Positions 2,525 through 30,497 of a DNA stretch of 37,207 nucleotides are shown here, piece by piece. The notes beneath the pieces were generated by a model that ran no database searches, was not told where the DNA came from, and worked only from the letters and a program-made list of their open reading frames with translations. Positions within the stretch are counted from its first letter, which is position 1. Each line of letters opens with the position of its first letter. Origin of the DNA: Leptospirillum sp. Lineage in GTDB: Bacteria; Nitrospirota; Leptospirillia; Leptospirillales; Leptospirillaceae. The position numbers and the translations under genes are program-made. The stretch spans positions 1-37,207 of the forward strand of contig DAHWBS010000010.1 of NCBI GenBank assembly GCA_027323445.1. The letters run 5' to 3'.

Positions 2525-4576
2525 ATGGAGAGAGTTAACTCCCCAAAGTCAGGGGACCAGTCCGTGTCGGATGAGGCAACATCGTCTCCGAAGCCGGAAA
2601 AAGACTCTGGCCACGGATTCCGGGAAAGGCTTGAAGAGGCGATAGCAAAGGCTACGAGGTCTCTTCTTGATCGGCAACATCCTGATGGGTATTGGGTAGA
2701 ACCTCTTGATGCGGATGTTACGATCCCTGCTGAATATATTATGTTTCAGTTTATCCTCGGAAGAAAAAATGACGTTCTTTTTCGCAAGCTAGCAGAGTAT
2801 ATCCTTTCCATTCAAGGTGCCGATGGTGGATGGCCTTTGTTCACCGGAGGAGCTGCTGATATCAGCGCCAGCGTCAAGGCTTATTTTGCCTTGAAGCTTC
2901 TGGGGTATTCTCCGGATCACCCTGCTCTTGCAAAAGCCCGTGCCTTGATTCTTGAAAGAGGCGGCGCCACGACGGTCAATGTTTTTACAAGGATTATCCT
3001 GGCTCTTTTTGGTCAATACGACTGGAAGGGGATTCCGGCATTGCCATGTGAAATGATTCTGTTGCCGAAATGGTTTCCTCTTTCGATCTATACGGTTTCC
3101 TACTGGTCCCGGACCGTCATTATTCCGTTGTTGATTATCTATCACTATAAGCCGGTTACCCCGATACCACCCGGACAGGGTGTGGATGAGCTCTTTCTGA
3201 AACCCATGGAGGAAGTGCATTTCGGGTATTCCTGGGATAAAAAGCTTTTTTCCTGGAAAAACCTCTTTTTCGTTCTGGATTATTTCATTCAGCACTGGAA
3301 TCGCCATCCGCCGGGGTTCTTAAGGAAAAAAGCTCTTTCCAAATCGGTTGAATGGCTTATTCCCCGAATGAAGGGAGATGGTGGGCTTGGCGCGATTTAT
3401 CCGGCGATGGCCAACAGCGTTATTGCCCTGAGACTTTCGGGCTATTCAGATGATCATCCGCTTCTGAAAAGGGCCATTTCTTCGATCGAGGACCTTGTTT
3501 TCACCCGGGACAACATGCAATCCGTTCAGCCCTGTCATTCTCCAATATGGGATACGGCACTCAGTCTGGGAGCCCTGTTTGAGGCGGGAGTTTCTCCTGA
3601 TCATCCGGCAATTTCCAGGTCGCTTGAATGGTTCCGCAGAAAAGAAGTGAAAACGGTTGGCGACTGGTCAGTGCATGTAACAGGAGTTGAGCCGGGTGGC
3701 TGGGCTTTCGAGTTTGAAAATGATTACTACCCCGATGTTGACGATACAGCTGTTATTTTGATGGATTTTGCCAAGTGGACAAACGGGTTCAAGGGATATG
3801 AGGATGTGGTCAGGCGAGCAGCCAGATGGGTCCTTGCAATGCAATGTACGGATGGTGGATGGGCCTCCTTCGACAAAGACAATGATCTTCTATTTCTGAA
3901 CAATATTCCCTTTGCAGACCATGGGGCACTTCTTGATCCATCAACGGCGGACCTTACAGGGCGTGTGCTGGAGTTTCTGGGGCTCTATGGCTATCGGCCG
4001 GATTTTCCCCCAGTTGCCAGGGCGCTTGACTACTTGCGTCGCGAACAGGAAAGCAACGGTTCATGGTATGGTCGATGGGGAGTCAACTATATTTATGGCA
4101 CATGGTCTGTGATTTCCGCCTTCCGGGCTTTGGGCGTTGATATGAAGTCATCCATGGTCCAGCGTGCAATGGGCTTTTTGCTCGATCACCAGAATGCTGA
4201 CGGTGGATGGGGCGAGAGCTGTCTTTCCTATTATAAAAAAGAAACCGCGGGTGTGGGCGAGTCGACTCCATCTCAAACCGCCTGGGCACTTATCTCGCTT
4301 GTTCATGGAGAACATGCGGACAGTCCTGCCGTCAGGAAGGGAATCGACTGGCTTCTTGAAAACATGCGGACAGACGGCAGATGGGATGAAACGCTCTATA
4401 CGGGAACGGGTTTTGCAAGGGTGTTTTATCTTCGCTACAACATGTACAGGGACTACTTCCCGTTATGGGCGCTGGCCCTTTATCAGAATGTCCATTTTGA
4501 AGGGGCTTCCCGGGTTTCCGGGAAAGTAGCCGTCTGGAGGAAGCAACCCTTTGCCCCTCTCGCCTCATTTTTCTAA
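2525..4576 (+). CDS. shc: Squalene-hopene cyclase
   Basis: Class II triterpene cyclase that turns squalene into hopene (and hopanol), the first committed step of hopanoid synthesis, at the inner face of the cytoplasmic membrane. The 683 residues are the usual length or slightly longer. The catalytic acid motif D-V-D-D lies at residues 404-407 within YPDVDDTAV. Several QW-type repeats are visible, such as QGADGGWPLF, QCTDGGWASF, QESNGSWYGRWG and QNADGGWGES. A short charged N-terminal extension of about 30 residues precedes the catalytic fold. ATG 2525 is preceded by GGAGG (2510-2514). The downstream phosphorylase gene overlaps its 3' end by 26 bases, so the two are translationally coupled, as expected for hopanoid clusters. 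Confidence 0.96.
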   Translation: MERVNSPKSGDQSVSDEATSSPKPEKDSGHGFRERLEEAIAKATRSLLDRQHPDGYWVEPLDADVTIPAEYIMFQFILGRKNDVLFRKLAEYILSIQGADGGWPLFTGGAADISASVKAYFALKLLGYSPDHPALAKARALILERGGATTVNVFTRIILALFGQYDWKGIPALPCEMILLPKWFPLSIYTVSYWSRTVIIPLLIIYHYKPVTPIPPGQGVDELFLKPMEEVHFGYSWDKKLFSWKNLFFVLDYFIQHWNRHPPGFLRKKALSKSVEWLIPRMKGDGGLGAIYPAMANSVIALRLSGYSDDHPLLKRAISSIEDLVFTRDNMQSVQPCHSPIWDTALSLGALFEAGVSPDHPAISRSLEWFRRKEVKTVGDWSVHVTGVEPGGWAFEFENDYYPDVDDTAVILMDFAKWTNGFKGYEDVVRRAARWVLAMQCTDGGWASFDKDNDLLFLNNIPFADHGALLDPSTADLTGRVLEFLGLYGYRPDFPPVARALDYLRREQESNGSWYGRWGVNYIYGTWSVISAFRALGVDMKSSMVQRAMGFLLDHQNADGGWGESCLSYYKKETAGVGESTPSQTAWALISLVHGEHADSPAVRKGIDWLLENMRTDGRWDETLYTGTGFARVFYLRYNMYRDYFPLWALALYQNVHFEGASRVSGKVAVWRKQPFAPLASFF

Positions 4577-14525: not shown

Positions 14526-14559
14526 CGTCAAGCTCTGCCCTTAATGGCGGAGTTTGACG
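14526..14559 (+). terminator. Hairpin just after the chelatase gene
   Basis: A 14-base-pair inverted repeat (14526-14539 with 14546-14559), including two G-U pairs and a 6-base loop, begins 8 bases after the chelatase stop. No T-tract follows, so it is either a weak/Rho-assisted terminator or part of the left end of the neighbouring insertion element. Confidence 0.4.
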
Positions 14560-15095
14560 GCGTGCCTTTGGTCCCGGTGTCTTCCCAGATATTTCGTGTC
14601 CCTGCATTTCGAGGACGAAGTCGCACCGAAGCCTGAAATTGAAACAAAAGTCGGGATCGACCTGGGGTTGTCGTCTTTGGTCACTCTCTCCACGGGGGAG
14701 AAGCTCCTCGCCCCGAACTTCTTCCGCGAGGAAGAGAAGAAGCTGGCTTTCTGGCAACGGAAAATGGCCAAAGAGAAGAAAGGCTCCAAAAACCGGAGGA
14801 ACGAATTTCTCCACAAGCTTTCGACTCGGCTGGTGAATGAGAACCAACTCATCGTCGTAGAGGATTTGTCCGTGAAAAACATGCGGAAGAACCGGCACCT
14901 GTCGAAGAGCATCACCGACGTCTCCTTGTCGGAACTTCTGAGACAGATCGACTACAAGGCCACTTGGTACGGACGGCAGATTCTGGAGTGCGAGACGACC
15001 CACGACCGGACATGAATGCGTCCAAGAAGATACTCACCGCCGGGCTGGCGGGATGTGCCTGCGGAGGGAATGTCAGACTTCCCGTTCCGGCCTAA
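14554..15095 (+). pseudogene. Decayed TnpB (IS200/IS605 OrfB) gene
   Basis: The sequence keeps recognisable pieces of the RNA-guided nuclease TnpB: YFVSLHFEDE, RuvC-I KVGIDLGLSSLV, RuvC-II VVEDLSVKNM and the conserved LSELLRQIDYKATWYGR. The N-terminal third is absent. About 20 residues seem missing between KKGSKNRR and NEFLHKLSTRLV. The zinc-ribbon is deleted between YGRQIL and ETTHDR. A one-base loss after THDR shifts the frame, breaking the third RuvC acidic residue; the old frame resumes as MNASKKILTAGLAG and ends in ACGGNVRLPVPA at 15095. No TnpA partner is seen. The product would be inactive. It lies between the chelatase and hemE. Confidence 0.8.
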
Positions 15096-20632: not shown

Positions 20633-20661
20633 TTGACATGGTAGCTCTATCGTTTTATGAT
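20633..20661 (+). promoter_or_regulatory. Consensus promoter of the metK operon
   Basis: A perfect TTGACA (20633-20638) and TATGAT (20656-20661, 5/6) are separated by exactly 17 bases. Transcription would begin near 20668, only a few bases before the putative riboswitch stem P1. Confidence 0.75.
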
Positions 20662-20671
20662 CAAAAGTGCA

Positions 20672-20725
20672 AGGTGGACTGATTTGAGGTCTGTTGCAAC
20701 CACCTAAAAAAAGTGCTAAAAGTCC
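20672..20725 (+). promoter_or_regulatory. SAM-II-like riboswitch aptamer upstream of metK
   Basis: The leader keeps the conserved order and spacing of class II SAM aptamers. P1 pairs AGGTGG (20672-20677) with CCACCT (20700-20705). The loop has TGATTT (20680-20685) and TTGCAA (20694-20699) directly before the 3' strand of P1. An A-rich joiner then leads to GCTAAA (20715-20720). A pseudoknot can form between GGTCT (20688-20692) and AGTCC (20721-20725), with one U-U mismatch. SAM-II RNAs bind S-adenosylmethionine and turn down methionine/SAM genes; this one precedes SAM synthetase. Compared with known examples, it has two extra bases (AC) after the P1 5' strand. A SAM-I-like reading was considered but fits the promoter position worse. 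Confidence 0.7.
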
Positions 20726-20749
20726 AGGTATTTACGCTTGATTAAATGT

Positions 20750-20781
20750 AAACCCTGTGCTCATGCACCGGGTTTTTTTTT
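20750..20781 (+). terminator. Intrinsic terminator in the metK leader
   Basis: AAACCCTGTGC (20750-20760) and GCACCGGGTTT (20765-20775) form an 11-position stem with one mismatch and a TCAT loop; the T-run extends to 20781. It lies before the metK start, so it can act as an attenuator. A competing stem pairs CAGG and TTTAC (20725-20735) with GTAAA and CCTG (20748-20757). It reuses the last base of the riboswitch pseudoknot, which gives a plausible SAM-controlled switch. Confidence 0.75.
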
Positions 20782-20805: not shown

Positions 20806-21963
20806 ATGGCGCGTGCCCCCTACCTATTCACCTCCGAGTCTGTGACGGAAGGTCATCCAGACAAGTTATGTGATCAAGTCTCTGATGGAATTTTAGATGC
20901 GATCCTTTCTCAGGATCCAATGGCGCGGGTTGCCTGTGAAACGCTCACAACGACTGGTATCGTGATCGTTGCCGGGGAAATTACTGCACGACACAATACT
21001 CAGTATGAAGATATTGTTCGTGAAACGGTGAAAGAGATCGGCTATACGGATGCCTCTTTCGGATTTGATTACAAGACTTGTTCTGTCCTGACGGCTGTTC
21101 ACTCGCAAAGCCCGGATATTTCAATGGGCGTTGATACTGGAGGTGCCGGGGATCAGGGATTGATGTTTGGAATGGCGGTCAACGAATCGGAAGAGTTGAT
21201 GCCGATGCCGATTCTTTTGGCGCACAGGCTGACACGTCAGCTTTCCAATGTCAGGAAAACGGGGGTTCTTCCGTATCTTCGTCCCGATGGAAAGGCTCAG
21301 GTTTCTCTTCGATATGATGGATTCAAGCCCGTTGGTGTTGAAACAATCGTTGTCTCGACACAGCATGCGCCTGAAGTAACGCAAGAAGAGATTCGTCGGG
21401 ATATCATTGAAAAAGTGATTCGCCCGGTGATCCCGACAAACCTTCTTGATGAAAAGACCGTGACGTTTCACATTAACCCAACCGGGCGATTCGTGACCGG
21501 TGGGCCAATGGGCGATGCGGGATTGACCGGAAGGAAGATTATTGTTGACACATATGGCGGCTGGGGTCGTCATGGGGGTGGGGCTTTTTCAGGAAAAGAC
21601 CCGACAAAAGTCGACCGCTCTGCATGTTATATGGCCCGTTATATAGCCAAAAATATTGTGGGTGCGGGGTTAGCTTCTCGCTGTGAAGTTCAACTGGCCT
21701 ATGCGATCGGCGTCGCCGATCCGGTTTCCATCCATGTGGAAACACAAGGGACCTCAACAATTCCTGATGACAGGATCGCAGAAATTGTAGCGGAAATCTT
21801 TCCTCTGACCCCAAAGGGGATCATTGAGCATCTGAAGTTACGGCGTCCTATTTACAGGAAAACGGCGTCATACGGACATTTTGGCCGGCTGGATGAAGAT
21901 TTTACATGGGAAAAGCTTGATCAGGTAGAGAATCTTCGCCGTGAAGCGGCAAGAAAGGGCTAG
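20806..21963 (+). CDS. metK: S-adenosylmethionine synthetase
   Basis: Makes S-adenosylmethionine from methionine and ATP. The 385 residues are typical. Motifs are complete: [20 protein letters not shown] near the start (ATP and Mg site), [10 protein letters not shown], and [22 protein letters not shown] 20806 has AGGAG (20796-20800) 5 bases upstream; the in-frame codon at 20785 would begin within a few bases of the terminator. It is the first gene of a long run on the same strand, behind a promoter, a SAM-II-like riboswitch and a terminator, so SAM feedback on its own synthesis is likely. ahcY follows 70 bases later. Confidence 0.97.
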
Positions 21964-21994: not shown

Positions 21995-23290
<1,296 letters not shown>

Positions 23291-23297
23291 GGCTGTT

Positions 23298-23501
23298 ATG
23301 AAAATTTTGGTAAACGGAAAGCGCAAGGATGTCCCGGAGGGGACGTCCTTGTCTGCCTATCTTGAAATTGAAGGTCTGGATCCTCAACTGGTTTCAATGG
23401 AGTTGAATGGTCGGATTGTCGAGCGGGAAGAGTGGGCTTCTACGGGTTTAAATGAAGATGATGAGCTTGAGATCCTGTTTTTTATGGGTGGTGGCTTGTG
23501 A
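23298..23501 (+). CDS. ThiS-like sulfur carrier protein with capped C-terminus
   Basis: A 67-residue ubiquitin-fold protein. It begins MKILVNGKRKDVPEGTSLSA, continues with SMELNGRIVERE and ends EILFFMGGGL. ThiS/MoaD-type carriers receive sulfur as a thiocarboxylate on a terminal Gly-Gly after ATP-dependent adenylation by an E1-like enzyme. Here the reading frame adds a Leu after the glycines, so the tail would need trimming before activation. ATG 23298 has weak upstream GAGG. Its stop overlaps the GTG start of the CysM-like gene. No thiazole synthase (thiG) or other thiamine genes are nearby, so a role in amino-acid sulfuration is more likely than thiamine synthesis. Confidence 0.85.
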   Translation: MKILVNGKRKDVPEGTSLSAYLEIEGLDPQLVSMELNGRIVEREEWASTGLNEDDELEILFFMGGGL

Positions 23502-24436
23502 CTTCTCCGGAAGGAGATGTTATTCGAAATCCTTTGGCGTTGATCGGGAACACGCCACTGGTTCCTTTGTCAAAGGTGACCGTTGGTCTTGACCGGACCG
23601 TTTGGGTCAAGCTCGAGTCCAGAAATCTTGGTGGAAGCGTCAAGGACCGCCCGGCTCTTTTTATGATCGAGCAGGCCGAACGGGATGGTCGACTTGGAAG
23701 GTCGGGTCGCATTGTTGAGGCAACCAGTGGGAATACTGGCATAGCCCTTGCCCAGATTGCTGTTCTCAAAGGTTACGCCATTACCATCGTTATGCCTGAA
23801 GGTGTATCTGGCGAAAGAGTCTCTCATCTCAAAGCCTTGGGAGCAGAGGTTCTTTTGACACCATCAAGGGATGGCATGGTCGGAGCTATCGGGAAAGCCA
23901 CAGAAATGGAAAAGAACGAAAAAGGTCTTTTCATGCCCCGACAGTTCGAGAATCCTTCAAACCCTGAATCCCATTATCGTACGACAGGTCCTGAAATTTT
24001 TCGTCAATTGGGTCGGGTTCCGGACGGATTCGTTGCCGGAGTCGGGACAGGCGGTACGATCAGCGGTGTCGGTCGCTATTTGAGGGAGAAGAAAAGAGAT
24101 CTCAAAATATGGGCACTGGAACCTTCATCTTCCCCCGTTCTTTCAGGGGGATCTCCTGGTCCTCACCGCATACAGGGGATCGGGGCAGGTTTTGAGCCCA
24201 AAACGTTTAACCGGTCTGTTGTTGACCGGATTGAGAAAATCTCTGACCGTGAAGCGATCGATATGAGCAGACGTCTCTCCCAGGAAGAAGGGCTGATGGC
24301 GGGGATCACCTCGGGTGCCAATGTCGTTGGGGCGCTTCGATTGGCCGGAGAGTTGCCTCCGGGGTCACATGTTGTGACAATTGTGTGTGATAGTTTTGAG
24401 CGATATTTTTCAATGGAAAAGTATTTGAATCTCTAA
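23498..24436 (+). CDS. CysM-like PLP-dependent cysteine synthase
   Basis: Fold-type II PLP enzyme of 312 residues. Lys49 in GGSVKDRP would bind the cofactor, VEATSGNTGIALAQ binds substrate, and GVGTGGTISGVGRY binds phosphate. Usual family members make cysteine from O-acetylserine and sulfide. Mycobacterial CysM instead uses O-phosphoserine and the thiocarboxylated carrier CysO. The neighbouring sulfur carriers and JAMM protease suggest a CysM-type reaction here, but the substrate cannot be read from sequence. It starts at GTG 23498, overlapping the carrier gene by 4 bases. An E1-like gene follows 61 bases later. Confidence 0.88.
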   Translation: MTSPEGDVIRNPLALIGNTPLVPLSKVTVGLDRTVWVKLESRNLGGSVKDRPALFMIEQAERDGRLGRSGRIVEATSGNTGIALAQIAVLKGYAITIVMPEGVSGERVSHLKALGAEVLLTPSRDGMVGAIGKATEMEKNEKGLFMPRQFENPSNPESHYRTTGPEIFRQLGRVPDGFVAGVGTGGTISGVGRYLREKKRDLKIWALEPSSSPVLSGGSPGPHRIQGIGAGFEPKTFNRSVVDRIEKISDREAIDMSRRLSQEEGLMAGITSGANVVGALRLAGELPPGSHVVTIVCDSFERYFSMEKYLNL

Positions 24437-24497
24437 AGGCTGCAGTTCGATTCGATTGTGCTTCCAGATGGCAAATCAAGTCGGTGAGGGTATTGAG

Positions 24498-25304
24498 ATG
24501 GAAATGACAGAAGATCAGATACACCGTTACTCACGTCATATATTGCTGTCAGAGGTTGGTGGGAGTGGTCAGGTAAAGCTCTTGAACTCCAGCGTGCTGA
24601 TTGTTGGAGCCGGTGGTCTCGGGAGTCCTGTAGCTCTCTACCTTGCCGCTGCGGGAGTGGGGCATATAGGAATAGTTGATATGGATGTGGTTGACCTTTC
24701 GAACCTGCAACGTCAGGTCATTCACCATTCCAAGGATATTGGAAGGCCAAAAGTCCTTTCAGCTTCCGAAAAGATGACAGGTTTGAACCCTGATGTCGAA
24801 GTGAAGACCTATCAGGTGCTCCTGAACTCGGAAAATGCCCGGGAGATCGCTGCGCCTTATGATGTCATTATAGATGGAACAGATAATTTTTCTGCGAAGT
24901 TTCTGATCAATGACTTGGCTGTTCTCACTGGAAAACCCCTTGTCCATGGGGGGATTCTCCGATTTTCAGGTCAGGTGATGACGATTGTTCCCGGACAAAG
25001 TGCCTGCTATCGTTGCATTTTCAGGGAACCACCTCCAGCCGGAGCCATTCCAACATGTTCTGAAGCCGGTGTTCTCGGCGTTATTGCCGGAGTTGTCGGT
25101 TCGATTCAGGCCACAGAGGTTCTGAAGTTTCTTCTGGGAAAAGGAGAACTTCTGACGAACCATCTATTAACTTATGATGCCTTGACTGTTCTTATTCGAA
25201 AAGTGGGTGTCCGGAAAAACCCCCGTTGTCCCATTTGCGGTGACAATCCAACCATTACGGAGCTTCACGATTATGAGCAACCCGTCTGTGCCAATCCAGT
25301 CTGA
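24498..25304 (+). CDS. MoeB/ThiF-type E1-like adenylyltransferase (copy 1)
   Basis: Activates a sulfur-carrier C-terminus by adenylation. About 268 residues: ATP-binding GAGGLGS at 37-43, the LSNLQRQVIHH segment, DGTDNFSAKFLIND, a TCSEAGVLG segment, and zinc cysteine pairs CYRC and CPIC. There is no C-terminal rhodanese domain, so the sulfur donor is probably free sulfide or another protein. ATG 24498 follows GGTGAGGG. It is clearly homologous along its full length to the gene at 27192, suggesting a duplication with each copy serving one carrier. Its 3' end overlaps the threonine-synthase-like gene by 32 bases. Confidence 0.92.
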   Translation: MEMTEDQIHRYSRHILLSEVGGSGQVKLLNSSVLIVGAGGLGSPVALYLAAAGVGHIGIVDMDVVDLSNLQRQVIHHSKDIGRPKVLSASEKMTGLNPDVEVKTYQVLLNSENAREIAAPYDVIIDGTDNFSAKFLINDLAVLTGKPLVHGGILRFSGQVMTIVPGQSACYRCIFREPPPAGAIPTCSEAGVLGVIAGVVGSIQATEVLKFLLGKGELLTNHLLTYDALTVLIRKVGVRKNPRCPICGDNPTITELHDYEQPVCANPV

Positions 25305-26550
25305 CTCTGCTGCCCATTCAGGCGTGAAAGCGCTTAAGTGCCGTGAATGCGGCAGAAGATATGAGCTTTTAGCCATTCACGTTTGTGAATTTTGTTTTGG
25401 ACCACTGGAAGTTGAATATGACTATGACGTCATTGGCCGCAAGATCTCTCGCCAATCGATTGAAGCAGGTCCTGTTTCACTTTGGAGATACAAGGACCTG
25501 CTCCCTGTTCTTGGAGAACCAACCGCTGGTCTTCATGCCGGTATGACCCCGCTTGTTCGGGCAGAGCGACTTGGCAAAGCTCTTGGTCTTAAAAATCTTT
25601 ATGTCAAAAATGACACGGTCAATCATCCGACGCTGTCTTTCAAGGATCGGGTTGTGGCAGTCGCGACAACAAGGGCTCTGGAACTGGGCTTTACAACGAT
25701 CGCATGTGCTTCTACAGGAAATCTTGCGAATTCGGTTTCAGCCCATGCTGCCAGTTGCGGGATGGAATGTTTCGTTTTTATTCCCCATGATCTGGAAGCA
25801 GGAAAGGTTCTCGGGAACCTGATTTACAAGCCAACGGTCGTTTCCGTCAAGGGGACTTATGATGATGTGAACCGGCTGTGCAGTGAAATCGGGGCAGAGT
25901 ATCCATGGGCCTTTGTCAATATCAATATTCGCCCATACTATGCTGAAGGCTCCAAGTCATTGGCTTTTGAGACGGCGGAACAACTGGGGTGGCGCGTCCC
26001 GGATCAAGTTGTTGTCCCGATTGCGTCAGGATCTCTTTTGACAAAAATCTGGAAAGGTTTCCACGAGTTTACACGACTGGGTCTTGTAGATGAAAATCCA
26101 CTTCTGAAGGTTAATGGAGCCCAGGCATCGGGATGCTCTCCTGTGTATCAGGCGTATGTCTCTGGAAAGAACCATATTGTTCCTGTGCGTCCAAACACCA
26201 TTGCCAAGTCATTGGCAATCGGAAATCCGGCTGACGGTTTTTATGCGCTTGATGTTGTTGGCAAGTCTGGCGGGCAGGTCGAACAGGCCACTGATCCCGA
26301 GATCATCGACGGGATGAAACTTCTTGCAGAAACAGAAGGTATATTTGCAGAGACGGCAGGGGGAGTGACTGTGGCCTGTCTTAAAAAACTGGCGCAAAAA
26401 GGATCAATCCGCCCAGATGAGCTGACTGTTGCCTATATTACCGGAAACGGTCTGAAAACAATGGAAGCCCTTGCGGGTTCTTTGTCCCAGCCGGTGAGCA
26501 TTGACCCCAACTTGTCATCCTTTAGACAAATTGTCAACCCGAAATCCTAG
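25273..26550 (+). CDS. thrC: Threonine synthase-like PLP enzyme with zinc ribbon
   Basis: About 425 residues. The N-terminus has a zinc-ribbon pattern (C23-x2-C26, C38-x2-C41). The catalytic domain has the PLP lysine in LSFKDRVVAVA, ASTGNLANSVSAHA and VVPIASGSLLTKIW. Threonine synthase turns O-phosphohomoserine into threonine. Its position in a sulfur-carrier operon makes a sulfur-linked role, for example homocysteine formation from O-phosphohomoserine, worth testing, though simple threonine synthesis is the default. ATG 25273 has GGAG about 10 bases upstream and overlaps the E1-like gene by 32 bases. The MoaD-like carrier follows after 8 bases. Confidence 0.88.
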   Translation: MSNPSVPIQSDSAAHSGVKALKCRECGRRYELLAIHVCEFCFGPLEVEYDYDVIGRKISRQSIEAGPVSLWRYKDLLPVLGEPTAGLHAGMTPLVRAERLGKALGLKNLYVKNDTVNHPTLSFKDRVVAVATTRALELGFTTIACASTGNLANSVSAHAASCGMECFVFIPHDLEAGKVLGNLIYKPTVVSVKGTYDDVNRLCSEIGAEYPWAFVNINIRPYYAEGSKSLAFETAEQLGWRVPDQVVVPIASGSLLTKIWKGFHEFTRLGLVDENPLLKVNGAQASGCSPVYQAYVSGKNHIVPVRPNTIAKSLAIGNPADGFYALDVVGKSGGQVEQATDPEIIDGMKLLAETEGIFAETAGGVTVACLKKLAQKGSIRPDELTVAYITGNGLKTMEALAGSLSQPVSIDPNLSSFRQIVNPKS

Positions 26551-26558
26551 GAGGATTC

Positions 26559-26837
26559 ATGTCTGTACTGGTTCGTATACCAACTCCATTGAGGCCTCTT
26601 GCCGGTGGACAATCCGAGCTTTCGGAGGAAGGTCAATCTGTAAAGGAGATTTTGGATAATCTGATCAGTCGATTCCCGGCAATGAGAGAAAGAATGATGG
26701 ACGAATCCGGAGAACTTAGACGTTTTATCAATATTTATGTCAATGAAGAGGACATTCGATTCAGGGAGGGGGTATCAACACCGCTTTCTTCCGGCGACGA
26801 AGTGTCCATTATTCCGGCAATTGCCGGGGGGGCTTAG
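26559..26837 (+). CDS. MoaD/CysO-like sulfur carrier ending in Gly-Gly-Ala
   Basis: A 92-residue ubiquitin-fold protein. It begins MSVLVRIPTPLRPLAGG, continues VKEILDNLISRFP and INIYVNEEDIRF, and ends SIIPAIAGGA. It resembles mycobacterial CysO. The last residue is Ala rather than Gly, as reported for the Wolinella carrier HcyS-Ala, whose Ala is removed by a JAMM protease (HcyD) before activation. ATG 26559 has a strong AGGAGG 5 bases upstream. The end is encoded in a run of seven G, so a sequencing length error there would matter, although the downstream spacing is consistent with the stop being real. Confidence 0.88.
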   Translation: MSVLVRIPTPLRPLAGGQSELSEEGQSVKEILDNLISRFPAMRERMMDESGELRRFINIYVNEEDIRFREGVSTPLSSGDEVSIIPAIAGGA

Positions 26838-26841
26838 ATCA

Positions 26842-27084
26842 ATGGCTCATCTCAGAATTCACCTGACCTTTCCCGAAGACCGCGTTCGGGATCCCATTAT
26901 TTATGAGATTTCCAAAAACTTCCAGGTTGTTCCGAATATTCGGAGAGCGGATGTTTCGGATAAAACCGGATGGATGGAGCTTGAGTTGGTCGGAGACCTT
27001 TCCGAGATTGAGCTGACAATCGACTGGCTTAGGAAAAAAGGTGTTCATGTGGATCCGCTAGAGAAGAGTATCCTTGAGGGGTAA
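26842..27084 (+). CDS. NIL-domain protein
   Basis: An 80-residue protein consisting of one NIL domain: FPEDRVRDPIIYEIS and FQVVPNIRRADVSDKTG, then GWMELELVGDLSEIE and a C-terminal helix with WLRKKGVHVDP. NIL domains occur in methionine transporters (MetN) and, with or without ferredoxin domains, beside sulfur-assimilation and homocysteine-synthesis genes. It begins 4 bases after the MoaD-like carrier. The role is unknown; a ligand- or carrier-binding accessory is plausible. Confidence 0.85.
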   Translation: MAHLRIHLTFPEDRVRDPIIYEISKNFQVVPNIRRADVSDKTGWMELELVGDLSEIELTIDWLRKKGVHVDPLEKSILEG

Positions 27085-27191
27085 TCGATTCTGCGAGAAC
27101 CAGAAAGCTTTTTGATCTAAAATGATTGGTATTCGGTCCCCGCTTTTTTCATCGAGTGCCAGGATGGACAAAATTTCCAGGAGCAAAATCA

Positions 27192-28022
27192 ATGAGTCAA
27201 GGGATTGCCAAACCGGTGAAGGAAATGTCCGAAGATCAGATTACTCGCTACGGACGCCATATCATTTTAAAAGAGGTGGGTGGCGTTGGTCAGAGAACAC
27301 TGCTTGGTTCTAGTGTCCTGATTATTGGGGCGGGTGGACTGGGAAGTCCGGTTGCCCTTTATCTGGCTGCTGCCGGAGTGGGCAGGATCGGTCTGGTCGA
27401 TCTTGATACAGTCGACATGTCCAATCTTCAGCGACAGATTATCCACTCCACCGAGACCGTGGGCGTTCCGAAGGTTCTTTCGGCAAAAAAGACCATGAAT
27501 AACCTGAATCCCGATATTGAGGTTATTTGCCATCAGGAACGACTGACCGCGGAAAATGCCTTGGACCTTTTTTCCGGATATGATGTGATCGTTGATGGAT
27601 CGGATAATTTCGGAACGCGTTATGTGGTCAATGATGCGGCCTATTTTTTGAAAAAACCGCTGGTTTCAGGATCCATCCTGAGATTTGAGGGGCAGGTGAT
27701 TGCCATCAGGGGATACATGGATACCCCTTGCTATCGATGTCTTTACCCCGAGGCACCTCCTCCGGGGCTGGTTCCCTCATGTTCGGAAGCGGGAGTCCTT
27801 GGAGTCCTTGCTGGAACGATTGGAACATTGCAGGCCGCTGAGGTTGTCAAGCTTTTGCTCGGAATCGGAGAGCCACTGTCGGACCGTCTCCTGCTGTATG
27901 ATGCCCTTTCGATGGATTTTCGGAGGGTGAGGGTCCCCAAGGATCCGGGGTGCAAGCTGTGTGGTCCCAAGGCAACGATTCATTCTGTAACCGGATCCAC
28001 TGACGTGATCTGTGCCATCTAG
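27192..28022 (+). CDS. MoeB/ThiF-type E1-like adenylyltransferase (copy 2)
   Basis: About 276 residues, full-length paralog of the gene at 24498. It keeps GAGGLGSPVALYLAAAG, MSNLQRQIIHS, DGSDNFGTRYVVND, SCSEAGVLGVLAG and the zinc pairs CYRC and CKLC. It would adenylate a carrier C-terminus. ATG 27192 has CAGGAG (27178-27183) 8 bases upstream; a longer TTG-type start near 27126 lacks support. It sits between the NIL protein and the JAMM protease, so it probably serves the MoaD-like carrier, leaving copy 1 for the ThiS-like carrier. The 107 bases before it are the largest gap in this part of the operon. Confidence 0.92.
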   Translation: MSQGIAKPVKEMSEDQITRYGRHIILKEVGGVGQRTLLGSSVLIIGAGGLGSPVALYLAAAGVGRIGLVDLDTVDMSNLQRQIIHSTETVGVPKVLSAKKTMNNLNPDIEVICHQERLTAENALDLFSGYDVIVDGSDNFGTRYVVNDAAYFLKKPLVSGSILRFEGQVIAIRGYMDTPCYRCLYPEAPPPGLVPSCSEAGVLGVLAGTIGTLQAAEVVKLLLGIGEPLSDRLLLYDALSMDFRRVRVPKDPGCKLCGPKATIHSVTGSTDVICAI

Positions 28023-28036
28023 TTCAAGGTTCTGTC

Positions 28037-28465
28037 TTGACGAATGAATCTTCCGCGCCTGTTTTTTTTTCAAGGGCGCTATACCAGTCAATCGTTGATC
28101 ATGCTCATTCAGTGCATCCGGAGGAGTGCTGTGGTCTTGTGGCATCCGATCAAACAGGTACTCCGGTTCGTGTCATTCCCATGACGAACATCCTCCACTC
28201 TCCGGTCAGATATCAGATGGATCCGGTTGAGCAGTTTTCCGTTGGAAAATCCCTCAGACTTGAGGGGATGTCTCTTTGGGGGATTTATCACTCCCACCCC
28301 ATATCCGAGCCGTATCCATCTGTCGTGGATATCAATCTCGCCTATTATCCAGATGTTTTTTACCTTCTCACCTCTCCCGTCACAACACCTCCAAGCTTAA
28401 GAATATTTCAGATCAAGGACAGCAAAGTAACGGAATTTCCTCTCATACTAAAGGAGGTGGATTGA
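28037..28465 (+). CDS. JAMM/Mec+-type zinc metalloprotease
   Basis: A 142-residue JAB1/MPN-family protease. The JAMM residues are present: Glu30 in HPEECCGLV, His85 and His87 in YHSHP, and Ser95 and Asp98 in YPSVVDINL. Mycobacterial Mec+ uses this fold to release cysteine from the CysO-Cys adduct, QbsD trims a two-residue cap, and HcyD removes the C-terminal Ala of HcyS. Here two carriers have an extra C-terminal residue, so this enzyme could both uncap them and release the amino-acid product. TTG 28037 has AAGG 8 bases upstream. It overlaps the response-regulator gene by one base. Confidence 0.9.
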   Translation: MTNESSAPVFFSRALYQSIVDHAHSVHPEECCGLVASDQTGTPVRVIPMTNILHSPVRYQMDPVEQFSVGKSLRLEGMSLWGIYHSHPISEPYPSVVDINLAYYPDVFYLLTSPVTTPPSLRIFQIKDSKVTEFPLILKEVD

Positions 28466-29169
28466 TGAGTCGGCGTATTCTACTGATAGAGGATGAGGCG
28501 GATATCCGGACATTGGCCCGACATTACCTTACACAGGAGCATTATGAGGTTCTGGAGGCATCAAATGGTACTGACGGGCTTGCGATTGCAAAATCCCAGC
28601 TGCCGGACTTGATCGTTCTCGATCTGATGCTTCCGGGAATCGATGGTCTCTCCCTGAACAGAATGCTGAAAAAAGAGCCCCGGACAAACCAGATCCCTGT
28701 TATTATACTGACGGCAAAGGCGGATGAAACGGACCGGATTATTGGCCTTGAACTTGGAGCAGACGACTATCTGGTAAAGCCCTTCAACCCGAAGGAGCTG
28801 CTTGCCAGAATTCGTGCGATTCTGCGAAGGGTTCATCTTGAGCCTCAAGTCAAGGCGGATGATGTCATTCGCATCGGAAGTATTTCGGTGAATGAGTCAA
28901 GACATGAAGCTCTTGCGGAAGGTGTAACCATGCCGTTGACGGCAAAGGAGTTCTCCCTTCTGCAGACATTAATGAAAAATGCGGGCCGGGTTCTTGATCG
29001 TGCCACGCTTCTTGATCTGGTATGGGGAGATGATTATGAAGGGACAGACAGGACTGTTGATGTTCATATCAGAAGATTGAGAAAGAAAATGGGAGTATTC
29101 CAGAACAAGATTCAAACCGTCAAGCAGATTGGGTACAAATTTTCCGATGATCCAGGCGAGATCAGTTAA
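28465..29169 (+). CDS. OmpR/PhoB-family response regulator
   Basis: A 234-residue regulator: an N-terminal receiver domain with the acidic pocket at E9/D10, phosphorylated Asp53 in VLDLMLPG, and Lys in DYLVKPFNP, then a winged-helix DNA-binding domain with LTAKEFSLLQTL and DRTVDVHIRRLRKKMG. ATG 28465 follows a strong AAAGGAGG. It overlaps the JAMM gene by one base, so it belongs to the same transcription unit. The kinase follows after 2 bases. It is PhoB-like, but no phosphate genes are near. The Spy-like periplasmic protein downstream is a possible target. Confidence 0.92.
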   Translation: MSRRILLIEDEADIRTLARHYLTQEHYEVLEASNGTDGLAIAKSQLPDLIVLDLMLPGIDGLSLNRMLKKEPRTNQIPVIILTAKADETDRIIGLELGADDYLVKPFNPKELLARIRAILRRVHLEPQVKADDVIRIGSISVNESRHEALAEGVTMPLTAKEFSLLQTLMKNAGRVLDRATLLDLVWGDDYEGTDRTVDVHIRRLRKKMGVFQNKIQTVKQIGYKFSDDPGEIS

Positions 29170-29171
29170 AA

Positions 29172-30497
29172 ATGACCTTCCGGGGTGTTCTTATTACCCT
29201 GTTCTGCATCGCTTTTTCTGCAGGCTGGTTCTTCTCCAGGCTTCAGGGAACCTTTGATCGCTTCATATTGATCCTGTTTTTAGTGGTGTTTCTTTTTTTG
29301 CTGGTAACACTGATTTCCCGCAGAGTTCGCTTCCAGATCAGGACGGCATTTCAAAAGCCCCAAAAAATGCAGGAAAATACATGGTTTGACGATCTTCTTG
29401 ATGAGATTTATATCCAGGTCAGCCGGTCGCACTCTGAAAAACTTCAGAGAGAATCCGATGTGAAAGAGCTTGCTGCCCGTTCCGAGGCTGTTCTTGATCA
29501 TATGGTTGAAGGTGTTGCTGTTACTGATACAAAAGGTCATGTCCTGCTTCACAACAAGTCTTTTTGTCGATTTTTTCCGGATGAATCGAGAATTGTGGGC
29601 GAGTCTCTTGGTTTGCTGGCCAAAAAAGCGGGTATCGATGATCTCATCGAAGAGGTTCTCTCGGGAAATCGACCGGTCCATACCGAGGTCACCTACTCGG
29701 GAGGCCTGTCAAAGACATGGAGTCTTCTTGGAATAAGAACATTGGGAGACGGAGGGCCAAGGTCAGGGTATGGAATTTTCCTGTTTTATGACCTGACTGA
29801 AATGCGACGTCTTGAGAGGGTCCGCAAGGACTTTGTGGCGAATGTTTCCCATGAAATCCGGACACCTCTGACCTCCATATCAGGATTTGCTGAAGCCTTG
29901 ATCGATGGGGCTATTGATAATCCCGAAACAGCGAGAAGTTTTCTGGAAATCATTGTGAACCAGTCTCACCGCTTAAATTCGATCGTGACCGACCTTCTTC
30001 ATTTGGCAACTCTTGAGTCAGGAAAGGCCAGTTTGACGGTGAAGCCTGTGTATCTTTCTGCTCAGGTGGGCAGTATTCTGGAAGCGGTGCGTTCGCTGGC
30101 GAGAGAAAAGAATATCACTCTTGAGGTTGAGATTAATCCACCAACCCTGATGTATGAAACAGACGAAGGCAAGATGAATCTTGTTTTGTCCAACCTGTTG
30201 GATAATGCACTGAAATATACTCCGGAAGGCGGAAGGGTCCATATCGGCGCCCAGCTTCTTCAGGGACGTGTCGAAATTACCGTGGGTGATTCGGGTATCG
30301 GAATTCCCAAAGAAGATCTGAGCCGGATTTTCGAAAGGTTCTACCGGGTGGATCGTGCCCGGTCCAGGGAGATGGGCGGAACAGGTCTGGGGCTTTCTAT
30401 CGTCAAACATGTTCTTGAACTTTTGCGCGGGGATATTCGCGTGAAAAGCACTCCCGGGGAAGGATCCGTGTTCACCGTTTCACTTCCTTACAAGTAG
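29172..30497 (+). CDS. PhoR-type sensor histidine kinase
   Basis: A 441-residue kinase. Two N-terminal membrane helices (to about residue 50) with almost no periplasmic loop, then a linker, a PAS-like domain (about 95-210), HisKA with His227 in VSHEIRTPL, and an ATPase domain with NLLDNALKYTPEGG, GDSGIGIP and GGTGLGLSIVKHV. The short loop and PAS domain suggest sensing inside the membrane or cytoplasm, as in PhoR. It begins 2 bases after its cognate regulator. It phosphorylates the preceding response regulator; the signal is unknown. Confidence 0.92.
   Translation: MTFRGVLITLFCIAFSAGWFFSRLQGTFDRFILILFLVVFLFLLVTLISRRVRFQIRTAFQKPQKMQENTWFDDLLDEIYIQVSRSHSEKLQRESDVKELAARSEAVLDHMVEGVAVTDTKGHVLLHNKSFCRFFPDESRIVGESLGLLAKKAGIDDLIEEVLSGNRPVHTEVTYSGGLSKTWSLLGIRTLGDGGPRSGYGIFLFYDLTEMRRLERVRKDFVANVSHEIRTPLTSISGFAEALIDGAIDNPETARSFLEIIVNQSHRLNSIVTDLLHLATLESGKASLTVKPVYLSAQVGSILEAVRSLAREKNITLEVEINPPTLMYETDEGKMNLVLSNLLDNALKYTPEGGRVHIGAQLLQGRVEITVGDSGIGIPKEDLSRIFERFYRVDRARSREMGGTGLGLSIVKHVLELLRGDIRVKSTPGEGSVFTVSLPYK

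Follow-up and report, generated by a model that had tools for sequence, protein, structure and literature searches.

We propose that the stretch of DNA analyzed here, 37,207 nucleotides (nt) of the iron-oxidizing bacterium Leptospirillum sp. (GenBank contig DAHWBS010000010.1; hereafter the window), carries an operon for sulfur assimilation that is regulated by S-adenosylmethionine (SAM), and in which sulfur would travel as a protein thiocarboxylate along two branches, one to cysteine and the other, via MetM and MetO, to homocysteine. This interpretation appears to us quite probable; its homocysteine branch is well supported, while its cysteine branch is one that we infer. Eight genes on the + strand encode, in order, a ThiS-type carrier, a CysK-type cysteine synthase, a first E1-like adenylyltransferase (E1a), a ThrC-like enzyme, a MoaD-like carrier, a NIL protein, a second adenylyltransferase (E1b) and a JAMM protease. 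The draft genome to which the window belongs, as contig C11, is 73% complete (G000; 1.5 Mb), and statements of absence therefore lean on its relatives, which are Leptospirillum and other Nitrospirota. A complete congener genome (G001) was used for comparison, two thirds of it being surveyed for E1, hom, thrB and cysE, together with a census of 148 Nitrospirota genomes, each at least 92% complete except G000, and 80 named loci retrieved by their ThrC-like protein. Genes were called by Pfam and NCBIfam profiles and RNA elements by Rfam; gene identity, conservation, membership in the MetM family, adjacency, fusion, regulatory RNA and genomic complementarity were computed from these sets.

The second branch centers on the ThrC-like enzyme (25273..26550, + strand), a ThrC paralog with an N-terminal zinc ribbon that matches PF00291 and passes the cut-off of TIGR00260. 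The latter could be expected of an ordinary threonine synthase that lies near sulfur carriers by happenstance, and a cyanobacterial relative is active as threonine synthase in vitro (PMC12172450). We nevertheless consider such a coincidence very improbable, and a plain threonine synthase identity was rejected because the same genomes contain a second, canonical ThrC. Exactly two ThrC-family proteins exceed the cut-off in G001: that of the cluster, whose roughly 447 amino acids (aa) include a CxxC..CxxC zinc ribbon at the N-terminus, and the canonical protein, which has 354 aa and stands in a hom-thrC-lysC run (thrB and cysE are found elsewhere in that genome). A canonical ThrC is also present in nearly all relatives, and in all nine genomes examined from cyanobacteria, Aquificota and N. 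defluvii. Cluster and canonical proteins are 32 to 38% identical (31.9% between the window enzyme and the canonical protein of G001) and fall into separate 100/100 clades in the tree. Thirty-two core positions, with at most one exception, split canonical ThrC and the Thermus ThrC (1uim) from the cluster proteins, and many of these are located in conserved loops around pyridoxal phosphate (PLP) and the substrate (GNAGN to ASGSL, STGNT to STGNL, and NSxNPxR to NIN-RP-Y). The strict adjacency to a carrier gene and a distribution complementary to that of homocysteine synthases, both described below, argue in the same direction.

A protein of the actinomycete Nonomuraea is 54% identical to the window enzyme, as against at most 38% for the ordinary ThrC matches in that search, and agrees with the cluster proteins at 26 of the 32 diagnostic positions; its gene is flanked by an S-box SAM riboswitch on the 5' side and by a MoaD-type carrier gene on the 3' side. 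In Streptomyces albulus, according to the account of Hasebe et al. 2024 (doi 10.1128/aem.01247-24) given in PMC12172450, MetM forms homocysteine from O-phosphohomoserine and metO is the adjacent carrier gene. Since the Nonomuraea homolog shares this metM-metO architecture, the window genes were named metM and metO, the likeness to S. albulus itself being by description only. The window metO (26559..26837, + strand) matches PF02597 and the SAMP1/MoaD models, and its product has the C-terminus AIAGG-A and M. tuberculosis CysO (3dwg_C) as its best solved relative. The MetO of S. albulus reportedly acts as a thiocarboxylate donor. Taken together, these sequence comparisons make it a well-supported prediction that the ThrC-like enzyme is a member of the MetM family and not the threonine synthase of its host. 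An AlphaFold2 model of MetM was modest (predicted local distance difference test, pLDDT, 73) and was set aside, so that it forms no part of the evidence.

In the mechanism that we envisage for the homocysteine branch, an E1 would adenylate MetO, which sulfide would turn into a thiocarboxylate; MetM would then use this thiocarboxylate to displace the phosphate of O-phosphohomoserine, and the homocysteine so formed would feed methionine, MetK and AhcY. The initial annotation had left the acceptor of the second route open and stated that no MetY-type enzyme was present. A MetM-type enzyme would supply that acceptor, with O-phosphohomoserine as its predicted substrate, and because the ThrC-like enzyme is of this type no MetY is required. 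The statement on MetY is correct for the window, and no PF01053 gene is found in the gene cluster itself, but it does not extend to the genome: one gene of PF01053 (the MetY/MetB/methionine-gamma-lyase superfamily) is present in G000, cut by the end of contig C27, and family relatives have one as well.

An alternative to be considered is therefore that homocysteine synthesis in the Leptospirillaceae resembles that of Wolinella, where MetY works with HcyS: the PF01053 enzyme would be the one to use the MoaD-like carrier, and the ThrC-like enzyme would have another function. Besides the presence of the gene in family relatives, this would be compatible with the situation in family f6, which has no metM: at L050:7247-13442 (G017) the run hom-tusA-E1-JAMM-metO-NIL-homoserine kinase-lysC retains carrier, E1, JAMM and NIL, and a PF01053 gene is found elsewhere in the genome. 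From this gene content it is possible that in f6 a MetY-type enzyme was swapped in for MetM within one carrier module. The Leptospirillum PF01053 enzyme, however, is methionine-gamma-lyase-like and scores under every curated cut-off, including those of MetY and MetZ. Moreover, no homoserine acyltransferase was found: MetA is absent from all 148 census genomes, and MetX (TIGR01392) gave no match above 29 bits in 21 genomes, controls for this profile also being under the cut-off, so that the result is informative only for scores above this value. As 102 of the 129 genomes with metM are also without PF01053, we judge this alternative to be improbable, and prefer MetM as the enzyme of the homocysteine branch.

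The census is in line with that preference. metM occurs in 129 of the 148 genomes (in G020 as a fragment), 27 of which have PF01053 and none HcyBio; among the 19 genomes without metM, 14 have PF01053 and three HcyBio (17/19 together). This complementarity yields p = 9e-9 in Fisher's exact test, a value that ignores shared ancestry. The absences of metM fall into five families (f4, f6, f11, f22 and one genome of f10), a grouping by lineage from which about four independent replacements can be deduced. HcyBio (PF01837)/DUF39 was not found in G000 and is absent outside family f4. The genes that surround metM in other genomes also point to O-phosphohomoserine. The operon of L182 (G152) reads hom-tusA-E1-JAMM-metM-metO-NIL-thrC-proposed homoserine kinase (TIGR02535), and metM-metO-NIL-thrC-homoserine kinase-lysC is found in L049 (G016), L181 (G089) and L186 (G087); in all four, the two users of O-phosphohomoserine, metM and thrC, belong to one operon. 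Supply of this substrate is provided for by hom and thrB in G001, and by the proposed homoserine kinase within the operon in L049 and L182.

The order of the genes is strongly conserved. As the initial annotation had recommended, it was searched for in related genomes, and it recurs both in all Leptospirillaceae genomes examined and in most of the named Nitrospirota loci. The complete arrangement metK-ahcY-thiS-cysK-E1-metM-moaD-NIL-E1-JAMM is present in Leptospirillaceae relatives with long enough contigs, and thiS-cysK-E1-metM-moaD-NIL-E1-JAMM in 39 of the 47 loci having at least 3 kb on either side, among them seven with metK-ahcY in front (one split by frameshifts); the complete chromosome of Ca. 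Nitrospira defluvii (L167) has the same thiS-to-JAMM order. Such repetition indicates that the arrangement is not due to chance. Two pairs are particularly constant: a carrier gene lies directly 3' of metM in 77 of 79 loci, and a ThiS gene directly 5' of cysK in 60 of 60. In Aquificota and cyanobacteria, metM-metO is the minimal common pair, alone or with NIL. In one locus (L041:6415-6661, G008), a HEARO RNA (IS605-type element) was observed between cysK and E1a, and the E1a frame there is unusually long.

The cysteine branch would consist of the ThiS-type carrier (23298..23501, + strand; TIGR01683, 70.9 bits), for which we propose a CysO-like role, and the adjoining PALP-family cysteine synthase (23498..24436, + strand). 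E1-loaded ThiS would pass its sulfur to the synthase, which would form cysteine from O-acetylserine. The initial annotation had labeled this enzyme CysM-like. While the families of the eight proteins are otherwise as it had given them, this one is of the CysK type by score: it reaches 369.7 bits with the cysK model TIGR01139 (cut-off 350.95) and remains far below the CysM cut-offs, and the congener has cysE, findings that point away from a CysM-type synthase acting on O-phosphoserine. No other protein of the CysK/CysM type was seen in G001.

These same facts would suit an arrangement in which only the homocysteine branch employs a carrier thiocarboxylate, with the CysK-type enzyme acting on free sulfide and ThiS with E1a serving thiamine synthesis; homologs of thiG and thiC, in addition to cysE, are found in the congener, and no further E1 was seen in the surveyed two thirds of G001. 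We regard this as unlikely, since ThiS always adjoins the cysteine synthase and in the loci seen is not next to thiG. The two are also fused into one frame at four of 60 loci, or five counting L046 (L046, L113, L117, L128 and L147), which we take as a Rosetta-stone link suggesting that they work together. A fused ThiS would need to be cleaved, because its Gly-Gly end must be exposed; that a fused carrier can be cut is known for mycobacterial MoaX (PMC4326299). No JAMM gene was seen beside the operon at the fusion loci, and G013, G029 and G030 have JAMM genes elsewhere. Wherever ThiS is a separate gene, its product ends with MGGG and one or more residues. Furthermore, both G000 (contig C42; L060:12125-12361) and G001 (L062:9667-9951) possess a third, separate ThiS, an orphan with 8 to 10 residues after GGG that is not beside thiG. 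This third ThiS and a separate moaA-moaD-moaE-moeA run seen by eye in G001 would be the ones that serve thiamine and molybdopterin. It is thus most likely that the ThiS-CysK-type pair makes cysteine from O-acetylserine with the carrier as sulfur donor.

Both adenylyltransferases, E1a (24498..25304, + strand; 268 aa) and E1b (27198..28022, + strand; 274 aa), match PF00899, are of the ThiF/MoeB type and stop without a rhodanese domain; the structures closest to E1b are MoeB and ThiF. In the tree they form two separate orthologous clades, each tracking species groups across the Nitrospirota, from which we conclude that the doubling is old and has been retained; the single-E1 versions, from G017, G018 and G019, join the E1a side close to its base.

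The protease (28037..28465, + strand; PF14464, 72.9 bits) resembles Mec+ and HcyD and has an intact HxHx10D motif. Neither G000 nor the complete G001 has a Prok-JAB gene besides that of the operon. The protease would trim the residues past Gly-Gly and cut cysteine and homocysteine off their carriers. Both window carriers have one residue past the Gly motif, GGG-L in ThiS (C-terminus MGGG-L, a tail kept in relatives) and GG-A in MetO, and HcyS-Ala of Wolinella has a comparable residue after Gly-Gly. It is therefore plausible that one protease trims and unloads both carriers, and it may have to mature the orphan third ThiS too. The correspondence between tails and protease is a loose one, as many Nitrospira MetO proteins stop exactly at Gly-Gly. 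A rule by which carriers have tails only where a JAMM gene adjoins was tried and did not come out clean: MoaD2, the MoaD-like carrier, ends at Gly-Gly in many JAMM-bearing loci, although a cyanobacterium without JAMM (L171) does lack the carrier tail, as the rule would have it.

The initial annotation's suggestion of two parallel routes is best supported with one of them leading to cysteine, the other to homocysteine, and a single protease encoded in the operon. We find it hardly conceivable that the carriers serve molybdopterin synthesis, tRNA thiolation or protein modification instead of amino acids. MoaD2 does match the SAMP1 model, and desampylase models give weak scores with the protease, but a SAM riboswitch governs an operon shared with metK and ahcY, and kindred operons carry hom, thrC and lysC. 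A molybdopterin role for MoaD2 was rejected in view of the separate moa genes of G001.

The stand-alone NIL protein (26839..27084, + strand; PF09383) gave an AlphaFold2 model with a pLDDT of 91, whose best match is the C-terminal NIL domain of MetN (template modeling score up to 0.85). MetN is the ATPase of a methionine importer, and its NIL domain senses methionine. By this structural resemblance, the NIL protein of the operon probably senses methionine as well.

The eight genes lie where the initial annotation had placed them, packed tightly (intergenic gaps of -32 to +113 nt) and directly behind metK (methionine adenosyltransferase, 20806..21963, + strand; TIGR01034, 585 bits) and ahcY (adenosylhomocysteinase, 22034..23290, + strand; TIGR00936, 634 bits). 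Upstream of metK there follow, in this order, a sigma-70-like promoter (TTGACA-17-TATGAT, 20633..20661, + strand), which with 11 of 12 consensus matches is the best in the region; a SAM-II riboswitch aptamer (20668..20729, + strand; Rfam RF01726, 44.6 bits, gathering threshold 44); and an intrinsic-terminator hairpin with a run of nine T (20750..20781, + strand; folding energy -14.3 kcal/mol, z -3.3), whose stem and T run are kept in five genomes. A SAM-II aptamer is also located 5' of metK in G001, G006, G003 and G008. The scores of these four relatives span 44.6 to 47.3 bits; those of the window and G001 are near the threshold, but since the three others reach 46 to 47 bits and the aligned core is invariant across the genomes compared, we take the aptamer as real. 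Binding of SAM would activate the terminator ahead of metK, and from the known behavior of SAM riboswitches and terminators, high SAM should switch off the entire operon. We accordingly propose, from this analysis of the leader, that the operon is SAM-regulated through promoter, SAM-II aptamer and terminator.

At the other end, a response regulator (PF00072 and PF00486) and a PhoR-like histidine kinase (28465-30497) start where the JAMM gene ends, at its last nucleotide; in nearly all family relatives the kinase is likewise found 3' of JAMM, and it may share the operon transcript. Elsewhere in the window, a fragment resembling a TnpB/OrfB transposase remnant (14554-15015) and a squalene-hopene-cyclase-like gene (2525-4576) followed by a hopanoid-type gene run were noted by eye.

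Several observations weigh against the two-branch interpretation. CysK enzymes take free sulfide, and the first PALP enzyme is of the CysK type. No E1 other than E1a and E1b turned up in the two thirds of G001 surveyed, so that these two may in addition load the carriers for thiamine and molybdopterin; in mycobacteria, a single E1 serves several carriers (PMC3227635). According to PMC12172450, a relative of MetM in Microcystis functioned chiefly as a threonine synthase when assayed in vitro, and methionine was not increased by it in vivo. The Leptospirillaceae have kept one PF01053 enzyme, so that homocysteine may have a second source there and the MetM route may be redundant in this family. 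Finally, the census is imperfect: two near-complete genomes (G148 and G041) have none of MetM, PF01053, HcyBio and MetA, although for G041 this may be an assembly gap.

Compared to known systems, the operon is closest in its homocysteine branch to MetM/MetO of S. albulus, with which it shares a ThrC paralog, an adjacent carrier of its own and an upstream SAM riboswitch. It differs in having SAM-II with a terminator rather than an S-box, E1s, JAMM and NIL in the operon, a C-terminal extension on the carrier, and a cysteine branch and metK-ahcY in one unit. In Wolinella succinogenes, HcyS, HcyF, HcyD and MetY (carrier, E1, JAMM and a MetY acting on O-acetylhomoserine) produce homocysteine; the residue past Gly-Gly, the E1, the JAMM protease and the product are alike, whereas here a PALP-fold MetM with phosphohomoserine would take the place of MetY, which is absent from the cluster, with O-acetylhomoserine. 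PMC5764234 refers to the Wolinella type as the protein thiocarboxylate pathway. The CysO/CysM/Mec+/MoeZR system of Mycobacterium tuberculosis (PMC3227635) likewise brings together carrier, cysteine synthase, E1 and JAMM; here, in contrast, a ThiS-type carrier adjoins a CysK-type synthase, cysE is present (in the congener), the E1s lack a rhodanese domain and the CysO-like carrier pairs with MetM. A NIL-domain protein is tied to homocysteine also in the HcyA (DUF39)/NIL-ferredoxin synthesis (PMC5764234), but here there is no DUF39, and NIL stands alone without ferredoxin.

The MetM/MetO route is known from Streptomyces (2024); its placement across a phylum and the operon with a cysteine branch are added here. 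MetM-MetO is likely the main homocysteine route in the Nitrospirota, which include Leptospirillum bioleachers and Nitrospira nitrifiers, and is also present in the Aquificota. More tentatively, inorganic sulfur could enter both cysteine and homocysteine as a protein thiocarboxylate in most of the phylum and in the Aquificota, by means of two carriers, two specialized E1s, one maturing and releasing protease, a methionine-sensing NIL protein and, in the Leptospirillaceae, a SAM-II switch, a generalization that we put forward only as a possibility. In 2018, Price et al. (PMC5764234) considered at least one further homocysteine pathway to be as yet undiscovered, with Aquifex among the organisms lacking any known one; if true, the two-carrier thiocarboxylate interpretation would fill this gap. 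The Nitrospirota operon also encodes E1s, a protease and what is probably a methionine sensor, so that the partners still missing for MetM/MetO can be tested directly; in the Leptospirillaceae, moreover, the synthesis of cysteine and that of methionine would be linked by one SAM switch.

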